Source: Desulfuromonas sp. TF (lineage in GTDB: Bacteria > Desulfobacterota > Desulfuromonadia > Desulfuromonadales > ATBO01). Taken from it: a stretch of DNA of 64,000 bases. Below the pieces are notes generated by a model. That model had not been told where the DNA came from and did no database searches. It saw only the letters and a list, made by a program, of their open reading frames with translations. Position numbers and translations under genes: made by a program. The stretch is taken from the NCBI RefSeq assembly GCF_000472285.1, contig NZ_KI421421.1:2119-66118 (forward strand), read 5' to 3'. Every line of letters begins with the position of its first letter. Position 1 is the stretch's first letter. Shown here in pieces: positions 7,816 to 22,926 of this stretch.

Positions 7816-8631
7816 TCAGGGGATTTCAGGCTGGGCGGCCATAGCGAGGGCTTGCGCATGACTGTAAACCTCGAAGGCGTCTCCGCGCACATAGCCGACC
7901 AGGGTGATGCCGGCCTGCTCGGCCATCTTGATGACCATGTCGGTGGGGGAGGTGCGCGAGGCGATCAGGACGATGCCGAGCCGTATCGCCTTGGCGACCA
8001 TCTCGGTGGAGACCCGCCCCGAGGTGACGAGAAGCTTCCCGTGCAGGTCGAGGTTTTTAAAGAGCGCCTCACCGGCGATGCGATCAAGGGTGTTGTGACG
8101 GCCGAGATCTTCGGAGTAGATCAGCAGCTGCTGTCCGTCGCCCACTGCCGCCGAGTGGATGCCCCCATGGGCCCGATAGTTCTCGGCTCTTTCGGCCAGC
8201 TCCCGCATCAGGGCGAAGATCTGTTGTGGGGTGAAGCGGACGCGGGTTTCACCGGAGTCCGCTCTTTTATCTGGCGGGGTGGGGAGCTGAAAAGTGATTC
8301 CGCTTCCGCAGCCCGAGGTGAGGGTGAGACCAAGTCGCTCGGGGACCTCGCCGCGGATGCGTACCTTGGCCGTCCCGAAGTCGTCGCAGACGCCAAGGCT
8401 CAGGATATCATCCAGGCTCCGGATGAATCCCTGCAGGCGCAGGAACCCGACAACCAGAAAGTTGAGTTGATGGGGGGAGGCGATCAGGGTGGCGAGATCC
8501 CGGCCGTTGACTTCGAGGCGCAGCGGATATTCCTGGACAACCTGGCGTTCTACATGGGTCAGAGAGCCCTGCTTGTAGCGCAGAACCAAGTGGCGGCGAT
8601 TCTGTTCCATGCCTTGGGCCTTCTTCGTCAC
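7816..8631 (-). CDS. fdhD: FdhD-family sulfurtransferase for Mo/W-enzyme maturation
   Basis: 271 residues from a GTG whose GTGA overlaps the stop of the upstream gene; an ATG 21 bases further in is an alternative. FdhD passes sulfur from a cysteine desulfurase to the bis-MGD cofactor of formate dehydrogenase-type enzymes. Family blocks LGRHNTLDRIAGEAL and LLVTSGRVSTEMVAKA are present. The E. coli protein has a CxxC sulfur-transfer motif; here the segment is TSGCGSGITF, so only the first Cys remains. Its clients may be the molybdopterin enzyme at 1939-4383 or an unseen formate dehydrogenase. Confidence 0.88.
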   Translation of the reverse strand: MTKKAQGMEQNRRHLVLRYKQGSLTHVERQVVQEYPLRLEVNGRDLATLIASPHQLNFLVVGFLRLQGFIRSLDDILSLGVCDDFGTAKVRIRGEVPERLGLTLTSGCGSGITFQLPTPPDKRADSGETRVRFTPQQIFALMRELAERAENYRAHGGIHSAAVGDGQQLLIYSEDLGRHNTLDRIAGEALFKNLDLHGKLLVTSGRVSTEMVAKAIRLGIVLIASRTSPTDMVIKMAEQAGITLVGYVRGDAFEVYSHAQALAMAAQPEIP

Positions 8632-9674: not shown

Positions 9675-10280
9675 CTATTCCCCTGCTTCGGGGTTCGGGG
9701 GAGAGGTCAGCGCCTCGGTCAGCACATATGCCGCCTGAAGAGCCGAAGTGGGGCAGAGCGGAAAGCATTCCTTGCAGTCCCAGCATTCCTTGGCGGCGAT
9801 CTCCGGGATGAAGGCGATCTCCCGCTTCGCTCCCCGGTCAAAAAAGCTGACGGCGAACTTCTTCTTGACCTCGGCGCAATATCTCACGCACAGACCGCAG
9901 AGGATGCAGAACGAGGACTCCTGTTCAAAACGATTCCTGTCCGCGCCATATTCCTGGGCCAGTTCCTGCAATTGTTCAGAATCGGGGGCATGGGCCAGCA
10001 TCTGCTCCACCAGCACCTTGCGAATCTTGTCTATCTTCGCGGTTCTGGTCCTGACCACCAGGCCTTTTTCCACCGGATGCTGACAGGCGGCGATGAGATT
10101 TGTCCTCCCATTGGCATCCGCCTCAACCGTGCAGATCCGGCAGGCCCCATAAGGCGACAATCTCTCATGGTCACAGAGGGTGGGAATCGAGACACCCACG
10201 CTCCGTGCCGCCTCCAGAACGGTCGTTCCTTCCTTGGCGGAAACTTCTTTTCCATCAACCTGCAAGTTGATTTCATTCAT
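9675..10280 (-). CDS. bamI: BamI: NuoG-like Fe-S subunit of class II benzoyl-CoA reductase complex
   Basis: 201 residues. The N-terminal plant-type [2Fe-2S] domain (about 1-80) shows CDHERLSPYGACRIC and a later C in AACQHP. A [4Fe-4S] region follows with CILCGLCVRYC (about 125) and a second with CWDCKECFPLCPTSA (about 165). This equals the N-terminal part of NuoG or of [Fe] hydrogenases without the catalytic domain. It is the last bam gene in the Geobacter order. RBS AAGGTGAT precedes the ATG. It is separated from bamH by a 126-base MITE-like repeat, which is unusual inside this operon. Confidence 0.9.
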   Translation of the reverse strand: MNEINLQVDGKEVSAKEGTTVLEAARSVGVSIPTLCDHERLSPYGACRICTVEADANGRTNLIAACQHPVEKGLVVRTRTAKIDKIRKVLVEQMLAHAPDSEQLQELAQEYGADRNRFEQESSFCILCGLCVRYCAEVKKKFAVSFFDRGAKREIAFIPEIAAKECWDCKECFPLCPTSALQAAYVLTEALTSPPNPEAGE

Positions 10281-10304: not shown

Positions 10305-10430
10305 GATGGCTAAGCAAAAATTTCGTCCTAAAGGCTTGGTGTTTTTCAGGGGCGAAGGCATATCATCAGGTATGTCGAGGTCCTGAAAAAACGCCGTAAC
10401 GCCGTAGGGCGGACTTTTTGCGACGCCATC
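10305..10430 (-). repeat. MITE-like repeat, copy 1 (between bamH and bamI)
   Basis: About 126 bases that match, in inverted orientation, the sequence at 21392-21505 with only scattered differences and small indels. Ends read GATGGCGTCGCAAAAA and TTTTTGCTTAGCCATC, an imperfect terminal inverted repeat. One end reaches the stop codon of bamH. No open frame. It fills most of the 148-base gap between bamH and bamI. Confidence 0.85.
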
Positions 10431-12339
10431 ATCCTATGATTCTTGCTTCTTCAGGGATGGAAGACGGCACGGGTTCGCCGGAAATTTTTCTCACTGCGCC
10501 GAAGGCTTTGGGGCAGGCTTCGATACAGGCCCCGCACTTGGTGCATTTGTCCTGGTCGATGACGTGGATCCGCTTCTTTCCGCCTTCGATCGCTTCCGCC
10601 GGGCACTTCCTGAAGCAGGCACCGCAGCCCTTGCATTTTTCCACGTCGATGTGAAAGGCGATCAGCTCCTTGCAGGAGAGCGCCGGACACCTCTTCTCGT
10701 TGATATGCGCCTCATACTCATCCCTGAAGTAGTGCAAGGTGCTGAGGACCGGGTTTGGGGCGGTTTTACCCAGGGCGCACATGGAAGATCCCTTGGTGGC
10801 CTCGGCCAGCTCCTCCAAACGTTCGATATCCCCCTCTTTCCCCAACCCCTTGGTCAGGTTGGTCAGGATCTTCAGCATCTGCCGGATGCCTTCGCGACAG
10901 GGAGTGCATTTGCCGCAGGATTCGTCGCTGAGGAAGGCCAGGAAGTATCTGGCGATATCGACCAGACAGGTATCCTCGTCCATGACGATCATCCCGCCTG
11001 AACCCATCATGGCGCCGGCCCGGGTCAGCTCGTCAAAGTCGACCTTGATGTCCAGGAGATTTTCCGGGATGCAGCCTCCCGACGGTCCGCCCGTCTGCAC
11101 CGCCTTGAACTTTTTGCCGCCGGGAACCCCGCCGCCGATCTTAAAGATGATGTCTTTCATGGAGACACCCATGGGCACCTCGACCAGGCCGGTGTTGTTC
11201 ACCTTGCCGACGAGCGAAAAGATCTTGGTTCCCTTGCTTCCTTCCGTGCCGATCGAACTGAAGAAATCGGCTCCTTTATTTATGATCAGAGGAATATTGG
11301 CCCATGTCTCGACATTGTTTATATTGGTCGGCTTCCCCCAGAGTCCCTTGGTCGCAGGGAAGGGCGGTCTCGCATTCGGTTCTCCCGGCTTGCCTTCCAG
11401 AGAATTGAGGAGCGATGTTTCCTCGCCGCAGATAAAGGCTCCGGCCCCCCGATGCACCTTGACGGTGAAATCGAAACCGGAACCAAGGATGTTTTTGCCG
11501 AGAAGACCGTACTCCTCTGCTTTCTTGATGGCGATCGCCAGATTGGATACGGCCAGGGGATATTCCTGGCGAACGTAGACATATCCCTCGTTCGCACCGA
11601 TGGCATAGGCGCCGATCATCAATCCCTCGAGCACGGCAAAGGGGTTGCCCTCCATCACCGAACGGTCCATGTAGGCACCCGGGTCGCCCTCGTCGCAGTT
11701 GACGATGACGTACTTCTGATCGCCCGGAGCGTTACGGGCAAAATCCCACTTCACTCCCGACGGGAAGCCCGCGCCGCCTCGCCCCCGCAGTTTTGCGTTC
11801 TTCACCTCACCGACGACCTGTTCGGACGTCATCTCGAAGAGCGTCTTGACCAGAGCCTGATAACCTTCGACAGCGAGATAATCTTCCAGACTTTTGGGAT
11901 CGATCTTTCGATTGGAACCGAGAACAAGCCTTTCCTGGTTCTTGTAGAAAGGAATATCTTCTTCTTTGATTGCTTTTTCACCGGTGTTCGGATCGACATA
12001 GAGCAGGCGCTCAATAACCCTCTTCTCTTTTATCGTCTCCGAAATTATTTCGGCCATGTCTTCCGGCTGCACCTTGAGGTAACAGATCCCCTCAGGATAG
12101 ATGACAACGATGGGCCCCTGCTCGCAAAAGCCGTGACAGCCGGTCCTTCTGTTGACAACTTCAGCCTCGACGCCTTGCTTTTTGATTTCCTCTTCAAGCG
12201 CCGCGGCAACTTTTCCGGTTCCGGTCGCATGACAGGCACTCCCGGAACAGAGCGTAATGCAAGGCTTGTTCGGATCTCTTTGGGAGAGGATCTCCTTCCG
12301 GAAATCTTCCAATTCGGCAGGTGAATTTATTCTTGGCAT
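10429..12339 (-). CDS. bamH: BamH: NuoF-like NADH/FMN subunit of class II benzoyl-CoA reductase complex
   Basis: 636 residues. Order: thioredoxin-like [2Fe-2S] domain (about 20-110; CSGSACHATG, CHGFCEQGP), NuoF core with the NADH/FMN site (GRGGAGFPSGVKW, GAGAFICGEETSLLNSLEG), SLBB segment, NuoF [4Fe-4S] motif ESCGKCTPCREG (about 480), and two C-terminal ferredoxin motifs (CKGCGACFRKCP, CTKCGACIEACP). This is the diaphorase layout of bifurcating hydrogenases and HdrABC-linked complexes. In Bam(BC)2DEFGHI it is thought to exchange electrons with NAD. AGGGAG precedes the ATG. Confidence 0.93.
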   Translation of the reverse strand: MPRINSPAELEDFRKEILSQRDPNKPCITLCSGSACHATGTGKVAAALEEEIKKQGVEAEVVNRRTGCHGFCEQGPIVVIYPEGICYLKVQPEDMAEIISETIKEKRVIERLLYVDPNTGEKAIKEEDIPFYKNQERLVLGSNRKIDPKSLEDYLAVEGYQALVKTLFEMTSEQVVGEVKNAKLRGRGGAGFPSGVKWDFARNAPGDQKYVIVNCDEGDPGAYMDRSVMEGNPFAVLEGLMIGAYAIGANEGYVYVRQEYPLAVSNLAIAIKKAEEYGLLGKNILGSGFDFTVKVHRGAGAFICGEETSLLNSLEGKPGEPNARPPFPATKGLWGKPTNINNVETWANIPLIINKGADFFSSIGTEGSKGTKIFSLVGKVNNTGLVEVPMGVSMKDIIFKIGGGVPGGKKFKAVQTGGPSGGCIPENLLDIKVDFDELTRAGAMMGSGGMIVMDEDTCLVDIARYFLAFLSDESCGKCTPCREGIRQMLKILTNLTKGLGKEGDIERLEELAEATKGSSMCALGKTAPNPVLSTLHYFRDEYEAHINEKRCPALSCKELIAFHIDVEKCKGCGACFRKCPAEAIEGGKKRIHVIDQDKCTKCGACIEACPKAFGAVRKISGEPVPSSIPEEARIIG

Positions 12340-12348
12340 AATCGCTCC

Positions 12349-12843
12349 CTACTCACACGCACATTTTTTCAAGACATCAGCTGTCCCGGCCTGTTCCAGT
12401 TGCTTCAGGACTTCTGCCGTCTCGGGCTTATCCACGTTGCCATGGATTTCGCCATCCACGACCATCACCGGTCCCAAGGCACAGCAGCCGAGGCAGCTTA
12501 CGGTCTCCACGCTGAAGTTCAAGTCGGAGTCGGTTTCACCGGGTTTGACTCCCGTCACTTCCTCGACCGTCTCGATGATGCCCTGGGCGCCACGAACATG
12601 GCAGGCCGTCCCCACACAGACGTGAATCTCATGCCGACCCTTGGGAGTGAGACTGAAGTGCTTGTAGAATGTGGTGATATGCTGGATGCGGCTCAAGGGA
12701 ACATCCAATTTCTCGCTGACACGCGTCAACGCCTCTTTGGGGAGCCATTTGTTTTCGCTCTGGATGTCCAGCAATATCTGTATCAGCGAACTGGCTTCGC
12801 CGTGATGCTCCTCAATAATCTGATCGACTCTGCCGATATCCAT
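12349..12843 (-). CDS. bamG: BamG: NuoE-like [2Fe-2S] subunit
   Basis: 164 residues with the thioredoxin-fold NuoE pattern: CVGTACHVRG (about 85) and CLGCCALGP (about 125) give the four ligands of one [2Fe-2S] cluster. The N-terminal helical half is also typical. It ends 9 bases before bamH starts and is translated from an ATG with AAGGAC upstream. It would pair with BamH as the NuoEF-like module of the complex. Confidence 0.93.
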   Translation of the reverse strand: MDIGRVDQIIEEHHGEASSLIQILLDIQSENKWLPKEALTRVSEKLDVPLSRIQHITTFYKHFSLTPKGRHEIHVCVGTACHVRGAQGIIETVEEVTGVKPGETDSDLNFSVETVSCLGCCALGPVMVVDGEIHGNVDKPETAEVLKQLEQAGTADVLKKCACE

Positions 12844-12889
12844 GTCGTCGTCCTTATCTCTCTGCTGCGAATAAGTGTAGATCCAACTT

Positions 12890-13660
12890 TTAACTGGCCA
12901 GAGCGTAACGTTTCAGCTCCTCATCGAAGCGGACCAGACCGAGTCTTGAAGACATGCTGAGATGCCTGGATACTTCCGCCGCTTCAAGGCCAAGCCCTTC
13001 GGCAATGTCCCGGGCGGAGAGGGGATCCTTCTGCAAGAGCAGCATGATCTGGCTTATGGCCAATTTATCTGTCACCAGTTCCTTGAAGAGCTGATTGAAC
13101 TTGGCACTGGCGAAATACTCTTTGTACTCTTCCTCGGTCTTGAAACGCACCCGCAACCTCTCCCGCTCCACCAGCTTGGCATAAGGGAGGAGTTTCGATA
13201 CCGCTTCCAGTTTGAGCTTCAATGCGCTGTCGGTTATGCCCTCGCTTTTGCCGAGGGGCCCCAGCTGCTTGAGCTGCTTGCCGAAGTCATTCATGATCTC
13301 GGCATAACGCATCCCTTCGGAGGCGGAAATCCACTCCAGCCTTAAACGATCAGGGTTCACGCCGATGTACTCCAGCAATTTCTTGCCCAGATGCATGTTA
13401 AATAATGCATCGTAGTTTCCTTCGGTCACGTAATGGCATTCGCCAAGCCAGCAACCGCCGATAAACACCCCGTCCGCTCCTTTTGAGAAAGCCCGGAGCA
13501 CGAAGGCGATGTCAACCCTGCCGGTGCACATGACGCGGATGATCTTTGTTTCTGTACTATATTGTTGCCTGGAAACTCCAGACAGGTCCGCAGCCCCGTA
13601 CGCTCACCAAGTGCACAGAAAGCCGATGACGCTGGGCTTGTACTCGAATCCCGCAGCCAT
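12890..13660 (-). CDS. bamF: BamF: MvhD-like subunit with selenocysteine (in-frame TGA)
   Basis: 256 residues if TGA at 13604-13606 is read as selenocysteine. The ATG at 13660 has a strong RBS (GAAAGGAGATC). Codons 12-24 read I-G-F-L-C-T-W-U-A-Y-G-A-A, the MvhD signature CxWCxY with Sec19 in place of the second Cys; CTG and GGC-rich MvhD blocks MCTGRVD and GGCWLGECHY follow in the same frame. A hairpin suited to be a SECIS element lies 19 bases after the TGA. MvhD-type [2Fe-2S] proteins pass electrons to HdrA-like subunits, here BamE. BamF of Geobacter is also known to contain Sec. The C-terminal ~110 residues look like a winged-helix domain. A conventional gene call would start wrongly at 13531. 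Confidence 0.95.
13566..13584 (-). promoter_or_regulatory. SECIS-like hairpin for bamF selenocysteine insertion
   Basis: On the minus strand TGTCTGGAGTTTCCAGGCA folds into a stem of up to 8 pairs (one G-T wobble) closed by a short loop with GTT. It starts 19 bases after the UGA, within the usual window of bacterial SECIS elements, and the GU in the loop fits SelB recognition. It lies inside the bamF coding sequence as expected. Confidence 0.8.
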
Positions 13661-13702
13661 ATTGATCTCCTTTCTAGTCAGTCGTCAAAATCCACTTTCC
13701 GG

Positions 13703-16700
13703 TCAGTGGGTCGTTTTCTCAACCGCATGGTCGATCTGGGCGAAGATCTCTTCGTCCGTATAGTGCTTCAGGTAGATGGCACCGGTCGGACATTTGGCGT
13801 TGCACAGGCCGTCGCCCTTGCACAGTACCGCCTCCACCCGGGCCTTTTTCCCCTGCGGCGTCTCATAGAAGTCGATGGCGCCGTATTTGCAGGCCGTGAT
13901 GCAGGCTCCGCAGGCTACACAGTTATGCTCTTTGACGTCGCAGACAGACCCTGAGGCGGTGACCGAATCCCCCGAGAGGATGCAGACGGCGCGGCCCGCG
14001 GCCCCGTAGGCCTGGCTGATCGTTTCCGATATATGCTTCGGATAATGGGCCGTACCGCACAGGAAGACCCCGTCTGCGGCAAAGTCGACGGGCCGCAGCT
14101 TCACATGGGCCTCCTGGAAGAAGCCGTCCGGATTCATCGAAAGCTTGAACAGACGGCCCACGTCCTGGGTGGTTTCGGCGGGAAGGACCGCGGCGGACAG
14201 CACGACCAGATCGGCCTCCAGTTCAATCCTCTGCCCCAGAACGGGATCGGTCACCGTCACCTGCAGAGCGTCTCCCGCGGCTTCCACCAGCGGCTTGTCC
14301 TGCGGCTCGAAGCGGATGAACTTGATGTCCTTGCTCGCCGCCTCACGGTAAAAGTCCTCCTTGAAGCCGTAGGTTCTCATGTCCCTGAAGAGGATGTGAA
14401 TATCGATTTCGGGATTGATCTCCTTGAGCTTCAGGGCGTTCTTTATGGCATGGCTGCAACAGACGCGGCTGCAGTAATTTCTGTCTTCCTGCCGGCAGCC
14501 GACGCACTGGACCATCACCAGGCTCTGGGCGCCGAGCACTTTTTCGTCCTGGCTGGAGATTCCGCCTTCCAGTTCCAGCTGAGTCAAGACGCGGTCGTCC
14601 TGACCATAAAGGTATTCGGTGGGCCGATACTCCTGAGCGCCGGTGGCGATAATGGCAATCCCATGGAGGATCTTCCGGGGTTTCCTTCCCTTTGTGTCGA
14701 CCGTGGTCGTGAAGTTCCCGACATAACCGCTCACTTTGGTGATGGTGGACTCGGTCGCCACACGGATCAGGGGATGCTGGTAAACCTTGCGGATCAGAGA
14801 GTTCAAATGCTCCTGAACATCCATCCCTTCCAGGGTGGAATGGATTCTCCTGGCCATTCCTCCGAGGTCCGCATCCTTTTCGATCAGGTGAACCTCGAAA
14901 CCCTGCTGCGCCATGTTCAGGGCGCTGGTCATGCCGGCCAGGCCGCCTCCGATCACCAACGCCGTCTTGTCGACCGGCAGCTCGAACTCCTCCAGAGGCT
15001 CCAGGTGGGCGGCGCGGGCAACAGACATCCGGACGATGTCCTTGGCCTTCTGGGTGGCGTTTTCCTTCTCGCGCGAGTGGACCCAGGAGCAATGTTCCCG
15101 GATATTGGCGAACTCGAAGAAATATTGGTTGAGGCCCGCTTCACGACAGGTGTCCCGGAAGAGCGGTTCGTGGGTCCGGGGCGTGCAGGCCGCCAGCACC
15201 ACGCGATTGAGGCCTTTTTCAACGATGGCGTCCGATATCTGCTTGGCGTTTTCCGTGGAGCAGGCGAAAAGGTTCTCACCGGCCCAGGAAACTCCCTTCA
15301 GGGTGGAGGCGTATTCCACCAGGGCAGGGATGTCGACGGTCCGGCCGATGTTGGCGCCGCAGTGGCAGACGACCACCCCGATTTTGAGTTCCTCCTCGGA
15401 GACGTCGCGCTCCTCCGGGTAGACCCTCTCCCTGCTCAACCTGTTGCGTCGATAGTTGAGAAGCTCTCCCACCAGGGCATCGGCGCCGCTGGCGGTGACG
15501 ACGGACTCGGGAATATCCAGAGGTCCTTGGAACGCCCCGCTGACGAAAACCCCCTCGCGGGTGGTCTGGATGGGATTTTTCGGATTGATCTTGCAGAATC
15601 CCTTGTCATTGAGCTCGATGCCGAATTTCCGGGCCAGTCCCTCGAAGTCTTTCGGAGGATTCAAGCCGACCGAGAGCACCACCAGGTCGAATTCCTCTTC
15701 CTTGACTCCGTCATCGAGAGTGGAGTATCGGATGGTGACATTCTTGGATTCTTCGATCTCCCTGCCCACCTGGACGTAGCTGCGTATGAAGCGCACGTCC
15801 GAAAGCTTCTCCGCGCGCTGGTAGAAGCGCTCGAAATCCTTGCTGAAAGCGCGGATATCGTTATGGAAGATGGTGGCGTTGAGGCTGGCGTCATGGTCTT
15901 TGGCCAGGATCACCTGCTTCTGGGTATAGGCGCAGCACACCGCGGAGCAGTAGCTGTTGCCCCCCTCGAGGTTGGCCTGCCGCGAGCCGACGCACTGAAT
16001 CCAGGCGATCTTGTGGGGGTGTTTCTTGTCGGAGGGACGCTTTACCTCGCCCTCATAAGGTCCGGTCGCGCACAGGATCCGTTCGAAATCGAGACTGGTG
16101 ACGACGTTTTCCATGATGCCGTAGCCGAAGTCGTTCCGAAGCTTCGGATCGAAGGTGTCGAAGCCGGGAGAGAGGAGAATCGCTCCGACCTCCACTTCCA
16201 CCTTCTCGGGCTTCTGATGGAAATCAAAGGCCTTTGCCTTGCAGACGTTCACGCAAGCCTGACACTTCCCCTCTTTGAGGTACAGGCAGGTCTCGGGATC
16301 CACGTACGTGACCAGAGGCTCCGCCTGGGAAAAGTGGATGTGGACGGCTTTGCTCGAAGACAGGTTCTGATTGAACGCATCGGGGATCTTGACCGGGCAG
16401 TAGTCCACGCAGATGTTGCAGCCCGTGCACTTCTCCTCGATGATGTACCTGGGCTTTTTTATGAGCGTGACCTTGAAGTCCCCCGCCTCGCCCTCCACTC
16501 TGTCTACTTCGGTATAGGTCAGGATCTCTATATTGGGATTCCTCGCGCACTCGATGAACTTGGGGGACTCGATGCACATGGAGCAGTCACCGGTGGGGAA
16601 GGTTTTGTCCAGCTGGGCCATCTTTCCGCCGAGCGCGGGCGACTTGTCGACCAGGTAAACATAGAAGCCGGAAGCAGCGAGGTCCAAAGCGGCCTGAATG

Positions 16701-16792
16701 CCGCTTATCCCACCACCGACAACCAGCACATCGCCCATGTTTCTGCCCGCGGATTTATCAATCGGTTGTCTTGCGACTGGAGTGTTTTCCAC
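13703..16792 (-). CDS. bamE: BamE: HdrA-like flavoprotein of class II benzoyl-CoA reductase complex
   Basis: 1029 residues from a GTG with GGGAG upstream. Two FAD-binding HdrA-type halves: GGGISGIQAALDLAASG near residue 27 and GGGLAGMTSALNMAQQG near residue 620. Between and within them are ferredoxin motifs (CTGCNICVDYCP; CLYLKEGKCQACVNVC), HdrA cysteine blocks (CVGSRQ, CSAVCC; CVGCRQE, CSRVCC) and CHCGANIGRTVD. The C-terminus has two more [4Fe-4S] sites (CVACGACITACK, CKGDGLCNAKCP). Duplicated HdrA proteins are associated with flavin-based electron bifurcation; in Bam this is the proposed site that drives low-potential electrons to BamBC. Cytoplasmic or membrane-attached. Confidence 0.94.
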   Translation of the reverse strand: MENTPVARQPIDKSAGRNMGDVLVVGGGISGIQAALDLAASGFYVYLVDKSPALGGKMAQLDKTFPTGDCSMCIESPKFIECARNPNIEILTYTEVDRVEGEAGDFKVTLIKKPRYIIEEKCTGCNICVDYCPVKIPDAFNQNLSSSKAVHIHFSQAEPLVTYVDPETCLYLKEGKCQACVNVCKAKAFDFHQKPEKVEVEVGAILLSPGFDTFDPKLRNDFGYGIMENVVTSLDFERILCATGPYEGEVKRPSDKKHPHKIAWIQCVGSRQANLEGGNSYCSAVCCAYTQKQVILAKDHDASLNATIFHNDIRAFSKDFERFYQRAEKLSDVRFIRSYVQVGREIEESKNVTIRYSTLDDGVKEEEFDLVVLSVGLNPPKDFEGLARKFGIELNDKGFCKINPKNPIQTTREGVFVSGAFQGPLDIPESVVTASGADALVGELLNYRRNRLSRERVYPEERDVSEEELKIGVVVCHCGANIGRTVDIPALVEYASTLKGVSWAGENLFACSTENAKQISDAIVEKGLNRVVLAACTPRTHEPLFRDTCREAGLNQYFFEFANIREHCSWVHSREKENATQKAKDIVRMSVARAAHLEPLEEFELPVDKTALVIGGGLAGMTSALNMAQQGFEVHLIEKDADLGGMARRIHSTLEGMDVQEHLNSLIRKVYQHPLIRVATESTITKVSGYVGNFTTTVDTKGRKPRKILHGIAIIATGAQEYRPTEYLYGQDDRVLTQLELEGGISSQDEKVLGAQSLVMVQCVGCRQEDRNYCSRVCCSHAIKNALKLKEINPEIDIHILFRDMRTYGFKEDFYREAASKDIKFIRFEPQDKPLVEAAGDALQVTVTDPVLGQRIELEADLVVLSAAVLPAETTQDVGRLFKLSMNPDGFFQEAHVKLRPVDFAADGVFLCGTAHYPKHISETISQAYGAAGRAVCILSGDSVTASGSVCDVKEHNCVACGACITACKYGAIDFYETPQGKKARVEAVLCKGDGLCNAKCPTGAIYLKHYTDEEIFAQIDHAVEKTTH

Positions 16793-16832: not shown

Positions 16833-17981
16833 CTAGATCACTGCCTGGATGATTTCAGTGATATCCATGATCTGCAGGGCACCCTCGTCCAGTTCCAGGC
16901 TGCTGTCCGTGAAGTTGGTGATGCAGTAGGGACAGGAAGTCACCAGGACCTCGGCTCCGGCATCGACGGCTTGTCTCACGCGCAGGCCGGAGAACCTCTC
17001 CTCCTTGGGCGTTTCCATCCAGATCCTGCCTCCGCCGCCGCCGCAGCACAGACTCTTCTCGCGCGAATCGGCCATCTCGCTCAGCTCGAGACCGGGAACC
17101 TTGTTCAGAAGTTCGCGGGGTTTGTCGTAGATGCCGTTGTGGCGACCCAGGTAGCACGGATCGTGATAGGTGACTTTCTTTCCGTACTCCCCGGTGAGCT
17201 GCAGCCGCCCTTCGTTGACCAGCTCGGCGATGAATTCGGAGATGAAGACCACCTCGAAGTTCACCATGAACTCGGGATATTCGTTCTTGAAGCTGTGGTA
17301 GCAATGGGGCGAGGAGACGATAACCTTCTTCACGCCGGCATCGACGAACGCCTTGATGTTGTCCTTGGCCAGCCGCTTGAACAGCTCTTCGTTCCCCGTC
17401 TTGCGGATGCTTTCTCCGCAGCAGCTTTCCCTGGAGCCGAGGATCCCGAAATCCACGCCCGCCTTGTTCAGGACCTTGGCGGTGGCGGCGGCCACTTGTC
17501 TCATCCGCGGATCATAGCTCAGGTAGCAGCCTGTGAAGTACAGAACCTCCATGTCCTCGGTGAAGGTTTTTACGGGCAGGCCCTTGGCCCATTCCGCCCG
17601 CTTGTCGCGATCTCCGCCCAGGGAGTTGCCCTCGGAGGTGAGACTGGCCACGACATTACGAATCGGAGCGACGTGACCCGGATAGACATCGTACTCGGCG
17701 GCGAGTTTGCGCAGGGCCACTCCGGCCTCGATCTGATCCACTCCCCGGGGACAATTGGTGGGGCAGGTCCCGCAGGTGGAGCAGCGCCAGATCCCTTCGT
17801 TCTCGATCTCGGTGAGGCCGAAGGTCGCCTGGCGGATGATCTTGCGCATGCTGAACTTAGTGACCCTGTTCCACGGGCAAACGGCATCGCACCTTCCGCA
17901 CTGGTAGCAGTATTTGAACGAGTCGCCGCCGTTCTCTTTGATGACCTCGATTATTTCCTTGAAGGGGGCTACGGTCTCCAC
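16833..17981 (-). CDS. bamD: BamD: HdrC/HdrB-like Fe-S subunit
   Basis: 382 residues from a GTG (AGGTGAT upstream). The N-terminal HdrC part has CGRCDAVCPW and CSTCGTCPTNCPRG (about 27-90), binding two [4Fe-4S] clusters. The C-terminal part has two CCG domains: CYLSYDP...SRESCCG (about 150-195) and CYLGRHNG...SLCCGGGGGRIW (about 275-320), as in HdrB/HdrD. It would link the HdrA-like BamE to the BamBC catalytic unit. Confidence 0.92.
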   Translation of the reverse strand: METVAPFKEIIEVIKENGGDSFKYCYQCGRCDAVCPWNRVTKFSMRKIIRQATFGLTEIENEGIWRCSTCGTCPTNCPRGVDQIEAGVALRKLAAEYDVYPGHVAPIRNVVASLTSEGNSLGGDRDKRAEWAKGLPVKTFTEDMEVLYFTGCYLSYDPRMRQVAAATAKVLNKAGVDFGILGSRESCCGESIRKTGNEELFKRLAKDNIKAFVDAGVKKVIVSSPHCYHSFKNEYPEFMVNFEVVFISEFIAELVNEGRLQLTGEYGKKVTYHDPCYLGRHNGIYDKPRELLNKVPGLELSEMADSREKSLCCGGGGGRIWMETPKEERFSGLRVRQAVDAGAEVLVTSCPYCITNFTDSSLELDEGALQIMDITEIIQAVI

Positions 17982-18005: not shown

Positions 18006-18554
18006 TTAGGGTTTCAAGGTTTTGGACAAATGCGCGACCGTATCGAGGACTTTGTCTATCCCATGCCTCTTGACCAGGGCTTCCAGGCCGATCTCCATCT
18101 CCTCCCGCTTGACCTCTTCGGTTTTCACTTCCACTTCCCGTACCGAGACGGTCAAGGCATCCACCAGGCACCATTTGACGCACAGAGGCTCCTCTTCGCC
18201 TTCACACATGTCGCATTTCAGCGGGAGGCCGGAATCGGGTTCCCTGAACAGGTCCCTGGAAGGGCAGGAGGCCCTGCAGAAGCCGCACTCGTCGTATTCC
18301 TTGCCGTTGATGGTGTACCGGTCCCTGCCGGAACATTCGGCCTCGGCATACTCCCCGGCGTACACGGGAACGTAGACATCCCTGAGCGGATCGCGGATCA
18401 CGCGAACGCGCGAGCGCTCGGGGTTATTGCTGCTGTACCGCGGCGCGGCATGGAAGGCGGAGCAGATCACCTCGCAAGCCCGGCAGCCATTGCACTTGTC
18501 GACATCGATATTGATGGTTTTTACTGTTTTCGTCGTCTTCTTGTTATCTTTCAA
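18006..18554 (-). CDS. bamC: BamC: Fe-S electron-transfer subunit of BamBC
   Basis: 182 residues. The start is a TTG at 18554, chosen because GGAGGG lies 8 bases upstream and no better codon is in frame. Cysteine motifs: CNGCRACEVIC (about 21), CGFCRASC (about 90), and CDMCEGEEEPLCVKWC (about 113), enough for about three [4Fe-4S] clusters. In Geobacter, BamC together with BamB forms the catalytic heterotetramer; BamC brings electrons from the Hdr-like part. The C-terminal ~45 residues are helical and charged. Confidence 0.92.
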   Translation of the reverse strand: MKDNKKTTKTVKTINIDVDKCNGCRACEVICSAFHAAPRYSSNNPERSRVRVIRDPLRDVYVPVYAGEYAEAECSGRDRYTINGKEYDECGFCRASCPSRDLFREPDSGLPLKCDMCEGEEEPLCVKWCLVDALTVSVREVEVKTEEVKREEMEIGLEALVKRHGIDKVLDTVAHLSKTLKP

Positions 18555-18571: not shown

Positions 18572-20578
18572 CTAGTTTTTCTCTTCTGCCGCCAAAGCTA
18601 CTTCGGAAGGGGTTTCACCGCCGTCCGTCAAGATCCCCCTCTTGAGGAAATCTTCGCTCACATAACCCAAGCCCAGCGCCTCGAGGGATTCTTTGGTAGG
18701 AATGCCGTTGTTGTTCCACCCCTTGAGTTTGTAATATGAATCCAGAAGCTGCTCTTCCAGTTCGGGGAACCTTTTCTTCCAGTGGTTCTCCGGCGGCTTC
18801 TCGTCTTCTCTTCTCATCCCCCTGCCGATATTGATGGCCCTGACCAGCGTGCGGTATCTCCTGGCTGCCTGGGTCAGCTTCTCTTTATCCATTTCGATCC
18901 CGGCCCCCGCCGAGATGAATTTCGGATAGTTGTGAATGTGGTAGGGAGGCTTCAGGGGGAAGGAGGACAGCCCGGCGCACTGACCGAGGGCGTCATCGAT
19001 GTAGTGCATCGTCTCCTGCCAGTCGACGATGTCACAGGACATTTCAACCGTCGGGTAGTAGGGGTTCGAGTTCTCCCCGCGGAATTCCCAGTCCAGCAGA
19101 ATCTGCTTGAATTTTTCGTCGGGAACCTGGATCCAGTCCGAGACAAACGCTTCCCGCTCCTCTTTTGTGGCAAACGGCGCCTGGGGAAACTGCCCTTCGA
19201 TCTGGGTGATGTTCATCTTCTCGCCGGTCGCATACATCAGGAAGTAGACGGGGTTCAGCATCGAAAGCTTCAAAGGCAGCTGCTCGTGCTTCTTGATATT
19301 GTTGTGCGCGTAGGCTTCCGCGCCGTTGCCGATCTCCTTGGCCGCCCAGTAGGTCCCCTTGGCCAGCACATCCCCGACCCCTTCGCGCCGGACGATCATG
19401 TCGAGGAGGTAGTAGAATCGGCCTTCGTTGTCTTCGGGCATCCCCGGGAAATCATCGGCAGTCAGAATGCCGTTTTCAAGCAGCTCGAGGGCAAAGGCCA
19501 TGACCTGCGGAGCGGAGAATCCGTCCAGGCCGTACTCGGTGGCCTTCTGGGCGATCCTCAGACCGAAGTCCAGATCCGAATAGGCGCCCATGGTATAGGT
19601 GAGCTTGGTGAAGCATTTCATCATGTAGGTCGGCATCCCCGGCATGGAGATGGTCGCGCCGCATTTCATCGGACAGTTGAAGCAGCTGATCAGCCGGGTC
19701 CGGGCATTCTCAAGGGTCTCGGTCCACTCCTTTTCGATCTCCTCGTTCCAGAAATCCTTCCTCCGGGTGCGGGAGTTGCCCCACATGAAGTTCTCGGTAT
19801 GCCACTTCTCGTCATGGACTTTCATTTCCTGCGGCGACCCGAGCCCGGCCAGAATCGGCATGACCCCCGGAATCGGGTTGTCTTCGCGGACCTTGATGTA
19901 TTTCAGTACGTCGTTGCAGAGCTCCATGAACTCTTCCGGCTTCGCAACGCTAAGATCCTTCGTCCCGCGAACGACGATCGCCTTGAGCCCCTTGTCCCCC
20001 ATGACGGCACCGATGCCGCCTCGGCTGGCACTTGAGCGCCCCTGCTCGATCGAAGCGTAGTAGACCCGGTTTTCCCCGGCGAGTCCGATAGCGGCCACCT
20101 GAGCCTTCGGCTCGTTCAGCTCTTTTTTGATGATCTCCGCGGTCTCGATCGACCCTTTGCCCGCAAGGTGAGAGGCATCACGGATTTCCACCTTATCATT
20201 GTGGATGTACAGATAAACCAGGTTGGGCGACTTGCCGCGGAGCACCACCTTGTCATAACCGGCATACTTCAACTCCGGCGCCCAAAAACCCCCCATCATT
20301 GAAAACGCCAACAGGCCGGTCTGAGGGGAAATCGTGGAGACGATGGTACGATTGCATCCGGTAGCGGGCGTGCCGCACAAAAGACCGGCGCCGAATATCA
20401 GAAGATTGTCAGGGGAAAAGGGCTCGACTTCAGGCGAGACCCTGTCCCAAATTATCTTGGCGTTTGTTCCCAGCCCCCCGAGATAAAGCTCGGTATCCCT
20501 CGGATCGGTTGCTACCTTCTCGATATTTCCTCGGGAGAGATCAATCTCCAAATTAAACCCAGTCTCTGCAAATCTCAT
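18572..20578 (-). CDS. bamB: BamB: tungsten aldehyde-ferredoxin-oxidoreductase-like active-site subunit of class II benzoyl-CoA reductase
   Basis: 668 residues from the ATG at 20578 (AAAAGGGG upstream). The AOR fold is recognisable from YLGGLGTNAKIIWD, GCNRTIVSTISPQTGL and the conserved glycine-rich N-terminal domain. [4Fe-4S] ligands are Cys299, Cys302, Cys306 (CFNCPMKC) and probably Cys534 (GQCAGL), the same spacing plan as in archaeal AOR. BamB carries W-bis-pyranopterin and reduces benzoyl-CoA to cyclohexa-1,5-diene-1-carbonyl-CoA without ATP hydrolysis. It is the first gene of bamBCDEFGHI. Assignment as BamB rather than another AOR rests mainly on the complete gene order. Confidence 0.93.
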   Translation of the reverse strand: MRFAETGFNLEIDLSRGNIEKVATDPRDTELYLGGLGTNAKIIWDRVSPEVEPFSPDNLLIFGAGLLCGTPATGCNRTIVSTISPQTGLLAFSMMGGFWAPELKYAGYDKVVLRGKSPNLVYLYIHNDKVEIRDASHLAGKGSIETAEIIKKELNEPKAQVAAIGLAGENRVYYASIEQGRSSASRGGIGAVMGDKGLKAIVVRGTKDLSVAKPEEFMELCNDVLKYIKVREDNPIPGVMPILAGLGSPQEMKVHDEKWHTENFMWGNSRTRRKDFWNEEIEKEWTETLENARTRLISCFNCPMKCGATISMPGMPTYMMKCFTKLTYTMGAYSDLDFGLRIAQKATEYGLDGFSAPQVMAFALELLENGILTADDFPGMPEDNEGRFYYLLDMIVRREGVGDVLAKGTYWAAKEIGNGAEAYAHNNIKKHEQLPLKLSMLNPVYFLMYATGEKMNITQIEGQFPQAPFATKEEREAFVSDWIQVPDEKFKQILLDWEFRGENSNPYYPTVEMSCDIVDWQETMHYIDDALGQCAGLSSFPLKPPYHIHNYPKFISAGAGIEMDKEKLTQAARRYRTLVRAINIGRGMRREDEKPPENHWKKRFPELEEQLLDSYYKLKGWNNNGIPTKESLEALGLGYVSEDFLKRGILTDGGETPSEVALAAEEKN

Positions 20579-20736
20579 GTTCTGACCCCTTTTAGCAGTT
20601 CGTCGGACCTTTTGCCCGCCAGGTGTGAAAACCACTGGGCATTGAAAAACCCCGTTGAGGCGAAATCGCTGTAATTTTGGATGCCCCGCCTAGTTGACGA
20701 ATAACACTCTCTCTCCTGCCAAATGCTATTTCAAGT

Positions 20737-21694: not shown

Positions 21695-22926
21695 TCAGCC
21701 AAGGTCGAGGGGGCTGCGCACGCCGAGGGGGTTCTTGCTGACGACATGGGTATAGATCATGGTGGTGCGCAGGTCGGCATGTCCGAGCAGGTCCTGGATG
21801 GTGCGGATATCCGTGCCGCTTTCCAGCAGGTGCGTGGCAAAGGAGTGGCGCAAGGCATGAACGGTGACCCGCTTGGCAATGGCGGCGGTTTGCGTCGCCT
21901 CGCGAAAGGTGCGCTGAAAGAGGGAGGGATGCTGATAATGACGGCGCACCATGCCGCTGCGCGGGTCTGTCGACACACCGCGTGCGGGAAAAACCCAGAA
22001 CCACCCCCACTCCTTTCCGGCATTGGGATACTTGCGCTCCAACGCCTTGGGAAGATAGACCCCGTTCAGGTTCTGCTGTCGGTCGGAGTCGAAAAGTGCC
22101 CTGACCTCCACCAGGTGCGCGACCAGGTCGTTATGCAGGCTCTCCGGCAAAACCGTGCGCCGGTCCTTATCACCCTTTCCTGAACGAACGATTAGCAGCC
22201 CCCGTTCGAGGTCGAGATCCTTGACCCTGAGGTTCAGGCATTCGCTCAGTCGAAGACCGCATCCATAGGTCAGCATCGCCATCAGTCGCATGGTACTGCG
22301 CATAGCGTCAAAGACCCTTAGCACCTCCCCCTTTGACAGGACGACCGGCAGACGTTGCCGTTTTTTGGCCCGAACGGCATCGATCGCCTCCCCGGTGTCA
22401 ATGTCAAGCACATGCCGGTACATGAGATGGCGTTCAGCGCCTGGTTTTGAGTGGCCGCCGCGACATCACGATCGACGGCCAGATGCGACAAGTAGCGACG
22501 CATATCGTCGAAGGACAACTCCTGCGGCGGCTTCGCACCGAGGAAGGATTGAAACTGGCGGAGCCAGCCGAGGTAAGTCTTCTCAGTGTTCAGGGCCATC
22601 TGCTTGACGCGGAGGACATCTCGGGTTTTGTCGAGGACCGACGTCCAGGCATCGTGATCGGCATTGGCGGGGGTTGAGGTGGGAAGGACGCGAGTGAGAA
22701 AGAAATCGAAACGTCTCAGAGCCTGCTCGGCCTGCTTTACCTGCCACGGTTCGCGGGACTTTTCGAGATTGGACAGAAACAGGCGTGTTTGTTCGTAAGA
22801 CAGGCGTTCGGTCGGAGGGAGTCGAAGAAAACTATAGCAATCTTTAACCCAGCGGATATAATGCGGAAGATGCTTCGGACTCAATGACTTGTCGGTAGAC
22901 AACTCCACTTGGAATTCGTTCAGCAT
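21695..22926 (-). pseudogene. intI: Integron integrase (IntI), frameshifted
   Basis: Tyrosine recombinase in two frames. The N-terminal part (22926 to about 22432) holds the SAM-like core-binding domain and ends in NQALNAI; the next frame resumes at MYRHVL near 22423 and runs to 21695. Catalytic residues are present: R in GLRLSE, H-x-x-R in [12 protein letters not shown] in GHADLRTT and Tyr in TTMIYTHV. The block [17 protein letters not shown] is the IntI-specific insertion and [11 protein letters not shown] the usual end, which identifies an integron integrase rather than XerCD. Compared with typical IntI, about 4 bases (one codon plus one base) appear to be missing around 22425-22432. If the frameshift is real, the array is now immobile in cis. 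Confidence 0.9.

Follow-up and report, generated by a model that had tools for sequence, protein, structure and literature searches.

The bamF gene of the class II (tungsten-type) benzoyl-CoA reductase operon in the window (the whole 64-kb stretch of DNA analysed here) very probably encodes a selenoprotein, an MvhD-type electron carrier in which selenocysteine at residue 19 (Sec19) would be inserted with the help of SelB and a hairpin downstream of the codon. The stop codon inside bamF is almost certainly read as selenocysteine. This reading is well supported, and it makes the gene an expected further case of a selenoprotein previously described from a relative in Geobacter. The evidence that goes beyond chance is the count of TGA and Cys codons at the same residue, together with the synonymous codons frozen at the hairpin.

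Reading frame, domains and operon of bamF

The gene starts at ATG 13660-13658 on the minus strand, with AAGGAG upstream, and when the TGA is translated as U the frame yields 256 aa with a single U at residue 19, ending in TAA at 12892-12890 (Table 1). This bears out the sequence-only reading, in which the frame was said to run from the ATG at 13660, with its strong ribosome-binding site, across the TGA to 12890. The residues around the TGA are FLC-T-W-U-A-Y-G-A-A-D, and in the CxxC/U motif, which is invariant, the TGA takes the second position. A standard ORF call, made without readthrough, begins at ATG 13531, the next start codon downstream of the TGA, and gives 213 aa; it misses 43 bamF codons and the CxxU motif, just as the sequence-only reading had warned.

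Table 1 Features of the bam operon and of bamF in the window.
Feature	Positions	Strand	Basis
bamB, AOR-family tungsten-type catalytic subunit	18572..20635	-	domains, synteny
bamC, ferredoxin-like electron-transfer subunit	18006..18554	-	domains, synteny
bamD, HdrBC-like subunit (CCG domains, 4Fe-4S)	16833..17981	-	domains, synteny
bamE, HdrA-like flavoprotein	13703..16792	-	domains, synteny
Shine-Dalgarno AAGGAG of bamF	13667..13672	-	6 nt between GGAG and ATG 13660
bamF CDS, 256 aa, one in-frame TGA (Sec19)	12890..13660	-	reading frame, domain match
In-frame TGA, predicted selenocysteine, residue 19 of CxxU	13604..13606	-	translation and relatives
Bacterial SECIS hairpin (predicted), 8 bp, GUU apical loop	13566..13584	-	fold, relatives, bSECIS consensus (PMC13188914)
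bamG, NuoE-like	12349..12843	-	domains, synteny
bamH, NuoF-like	10429..12339	-	domains, synteny
bamI, NuoG-like Fe-S subunit	9675..10280	-	domains, synteny

The PF02662 (FlpD/MvhD) domain covers BamF residues 11-134, across the TGA (6e-47, 159 bits vs a curated cut-off of 22.3, full-length match over positions 1-123), and residues 204-243 match an ArsR-type HTH (27.2 bits, cut-off 22). Among proteins of solved structure the closest are the MvhD subunits of Hdr complexes (5odc_D, 2.7e-42), which have Cys where BamF has Sec. Cys or Sec is invariant at residues 16, 19, 45, 70 and 75, which makes five residues for four [2Fe-2S] ligand sites; since four suffice, Sec19 may either bind the cluster or be a free selenol with redox activity. 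The MvhD motif named in the sequence-only reading is present, while the cluster-ligand position that it assigned to Sec is plausible and no firmer, given the fifth invariant residue. No paper that names the residues ligating the [2Fe-2S] cluster of MvhD turned up in the literature searched.

A complete bamBCDEFGHI cluster surrounds the gene, with bamF between bamE and bamG, and the cluster order is kept in most of 62 fetched relatives (tblastn). Frame, domain and operon are direct observations. An FdhD/NarQ-family gene (window 7816-8631, minus strand) lies at the operon end, and FdhD homologues also stand beside bam genes in the relatives L019, L021, L022, L039 and L059. This arrangement suggests that FdhD serves in cofactor sulfuration for tungsten BamB. 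On the other side, next to bamB, a tyrosine recombinase gene (21695-22926, minus strand) has its N- and C-terminal domains in overlapping frames (22318-22926 and 21695-22423, respectively) and looks like a frameshifted integrase.

Selenocysteine machinery and conservation across relatives

The source genome (17 contigs, estimated 100% complete) was searched for the sel genes, the check that the sequence-only reading had proposed, with absence of selB or selC to count against it. All four were found: selA (617 bits), selB (381 bits, cut-off 242), selD (359 bits) and selC, a tRNA-Sec with anticodon TCA (UCA) scoring 80.9 bits vs a gathering cut-off of 47. On contig 17 selD, selB and selA are adjacent and selC lies ~6.5 kb beyond selA. 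The best selD match has an in-frame TGA of its own (G000:C17:239876-240793), which makes SelD, too, a probable selenoprotein.

A scan of 84,980 species genomes yielded 62 loci with relatives of BamF, or 63 copies with the window; the fetched relatives are at most 85% identical to the window BamF over the full length. The codon at the Sec19 position is TGA in 37 copies and TGC or TGT in 26. Residue 20 changes in step with it, being Ala or Gly after Sec in all TGA copies and Cys (18) or Ser (8) after Cys. Among the fetched loci, selA was found in 27/27 tested genomes with a TGA copy vs 12/22 Cys-only genomes (Fisher 8e-5), a p-value that, like the one below, overstates independence, since the sequences are related and 2 changes on the tree are enough to account for the Sec/Cys label; the split is largely phylogenetic and represents few independent events, not 63. 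In the window's own class (277 genomes), 50 of the 54 full-length matches have exactly one TGA and 4 have none (our tally).

These relatives bear on two other accounts of the codon. A sequencing error, or a TGA that arose recently from a Cys codon (TGC/TGT) by point mutation, would fit the Cys that other family members have here, but the same codon is TGA in independent assemblies from many laboratories and the hairpin follows it in the copies inspected; the relatives effectively refute this account already, and we give it next to no credence. Decoding of the UGA as Trp or Cys, through suppression or a change of code, has nothing specific in its favour and faces a complete Sec machinery, a selD that itself contains a TGA, the presence of selA in each of the 27 TGA genomes tested and a SECIS conservation restricted to TGA copies; it is equally hard to credit.

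Behind the TGA the sequence TGTCTGGAGTTTCCAGGCA (13584-13566) can form a hairpin of eight pairs (one G.U) with a 3-nt GUU loop at -9.6 kcal/mol, starting 19 nt after the TGA and with the loop starting 27 nt after the UGA. The published bSECIS consensus asks for a loop of 3-9 nt, a stem of 4-16 bp, a G in the first two loop bases, a distance of 16-37 nt from the UGA and an MFE <= -7.5 (PMC13188914), and the bamF hairpin (8 bp, GUU, 27 nt, -9.6 kcal/mol) satisfies all of these constraints. Nevertheless, the 61 nt after the TGA fold no more stably than shuffled sequences (z = -0.58), so thermodynamics was set aside as evidence for a SECIS. SECIS-shaped perfect stems of at least 8 bp also stand behind 3.4% of the 1961 TGA triplets in the whole 64-kb window, and an Rfam scan of 12800-13800 gave no relevant match. 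The hairpin of 7-8 pairs, 19 bases after the TGA, that the sequence-only reading had described is therefore present, with eight pairs, but the shuffling result and the frequency of such stems make it weak evidence when taken alone.

The comparison of copies is more informative, with the Cys copies serving as a within-family control for amino-acid constraint. The CTGG/CCAG pairs of the hairpin core are invariant in 37/37 TGA copies, so covariation is not demonstrable, and in the 26 Cys copies the pairs matching the core are mostly broken. In the 3' arm one Arg is encoded by AGA or AGG in 37/37 TGA copies vs 1/26 Cys copies (Fisher 1e-16, treating related copies as independent), and by CGN in the other 25 of the 26. 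Synonymous identity was scored as the excess over codon-usage expectation: at codons +8 to +12 it reaches 0.63 in the TGA copies (rest 0.09, sd 0.12), the top 5-codon window of the 150-codon stretch examined, whereas the Cys copies show 0.11 at the same codons (rest 0.13). The Sec machinery, the interchange of Sec and Cys and the nucleotide conservation of the hairpin are thus direct observations. They support the selenoprotein reading of bamF that had been made from the window's letters, for which an alignment of homologues across the TGA had been proposed as a check.

The same data weigh against the UGA being a true stop, with translation restarting at ATG 13531 to give a functional 213-aa BamF that lacks CxxU, or with the gene in decay. 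The downstream start codon and the 213-aa product of ordinary ORF calling agree with a restart, but nearly all relatives preserve the bamF frame and its amino acids ahead of the TGA, residue 16 is an invariant Cys and residue 19 an invariant Cys or Sec, the 50 full-length copies of the class keep TGA and never have TAA or TAG there, and synonymous codons are frozen just past the TGA. We regard a true stop as very improbable, and selenocysteine insertion as the best explanation.

Cysteine-type copies and known systems

The only four full-length Cys copies in the class (277 genomes) are extra solitary genes, in genomes (G305, G229, G281 and G196) that also hold a TGA copy. Among the fetched loci, solitary Cys-type bamF genes lie outside bam clusters in L048 (7970-9768), L052 (7338-9765), L054 (9001-9768) and L055 (7096-7866), and the genomes of these loci also have a Sec-type bamF within the bam cluster. 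A LysR-type gene stands upstream of the Cys-type bamF in the opposite direction in L048 and L052, the two regulators being 46% identical; no LysR gene was present among the neighbours checked in L054 and L055. In Methanococcus, selenium-limitation isoforms of the hydrogenases (vhu/vhc) are switched by the LysR regulator HrsM. That Sec in BamF is functionally locked in the class, with the solitary Cys copies acting as selenium-limitation isoforms under a LysR switch, might by the same pattern be proposed, but we consider it unlikely. For the source genome we reject such a switch between Sec and Cys isoforms, since it has a single PF02662 gene.

Sec-type BamF also occurs, mostly in bam-like clusters, on contigs labelled Actinomycetota, Planctomycetota, Gemmatimonadota and Rokubacteria (L045, L046, L063, L065, L068-L073 and L077), and selA was found in all these genomes. 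A Thermoleophilia genome carries two Sec-type bamF-like genes in tandem (L047:8000-9762).

The bamF gene of G. metallireducens, Gmet_2083, carries the annotation 'hydrogenase, delta subunit; HTH motif' (PMC1924859), and a 2006 selenoproteome survey listed one FrhD-family selenoprotein in this species (PMC1794560), which we infer from the shared family to be BamF. The G. metallireducens protein has the same operon position and domain make-up as the window BamF and differs in nothing of kind. The purified benzoyl-CoA reductase complex contains two selenocysteines. In Desulfococcus multivorans an electron-transfer subunit of the bam system likewise has Sec, but it is annotated in BamE, not BamF (PMC5109826), and in Geotalea daltonii selenite is reported to affect growth on benzoate and the expression of bamF1 (PMC13119186).

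Proteins of PF02662 that carry CxxU are catalogued as a selenoprotein family (PMC13188914). MvhD-type subunits share with BamF the domain, the CxxU/CxxC position and the part of a [2Fe-2S] carrier docking on an HdrA-type flavoprotein. BamF differs from them in serving an aromatic-ring-reducing complex rather than a hydrogenase or formate dehydrogenase, in its extra C-terminal HTH-like region and in its bacterial in-frame SECIS, where the MvhD-type counterpart has an archaeal SECIS in the 3'UTR.

Proposed mechanism and consequences

We infer from this evidence that the codon is decoded as Sec in the cell, that BamF is a member of the Bam complex and that selenium has a role there. SelB, with GTP and Sec-tRNA(Sec) bearing the UCA anticodon, would bind the hairpin whose GUU loop lies 27 nt after the UGA, and would direct insertion of Sec19 in place of termination. 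The predicted product is a 256-residue MvhD-type [2Fe-2S] electron-transfer protein, which may dock on the HdrA-like BamE, by analogy with MvhD/ElpC on HdrA (PMC12350162), and hand electrons on within the Bam complex during benzoyl-CoA reduction. This complex is roughly 1 MDa in size (PMC11971306).

The genome search found one PF02662 domain only, that of BamF, and hence no Cys substitute for it; on this ground a selenium requirement is predicted for the Bam complex. The synonymous freezing confined to TGA copies offers a clean and reusable test where a hairpin alone proves little. A key part of the complex that reduces aromatic rings anaerobically would be selenium-dependent and yet clipped by standard annotation, with loss of its CxxU motif, and with no Cys paralogue found, benzoate degradation in the source organism should need selenium.
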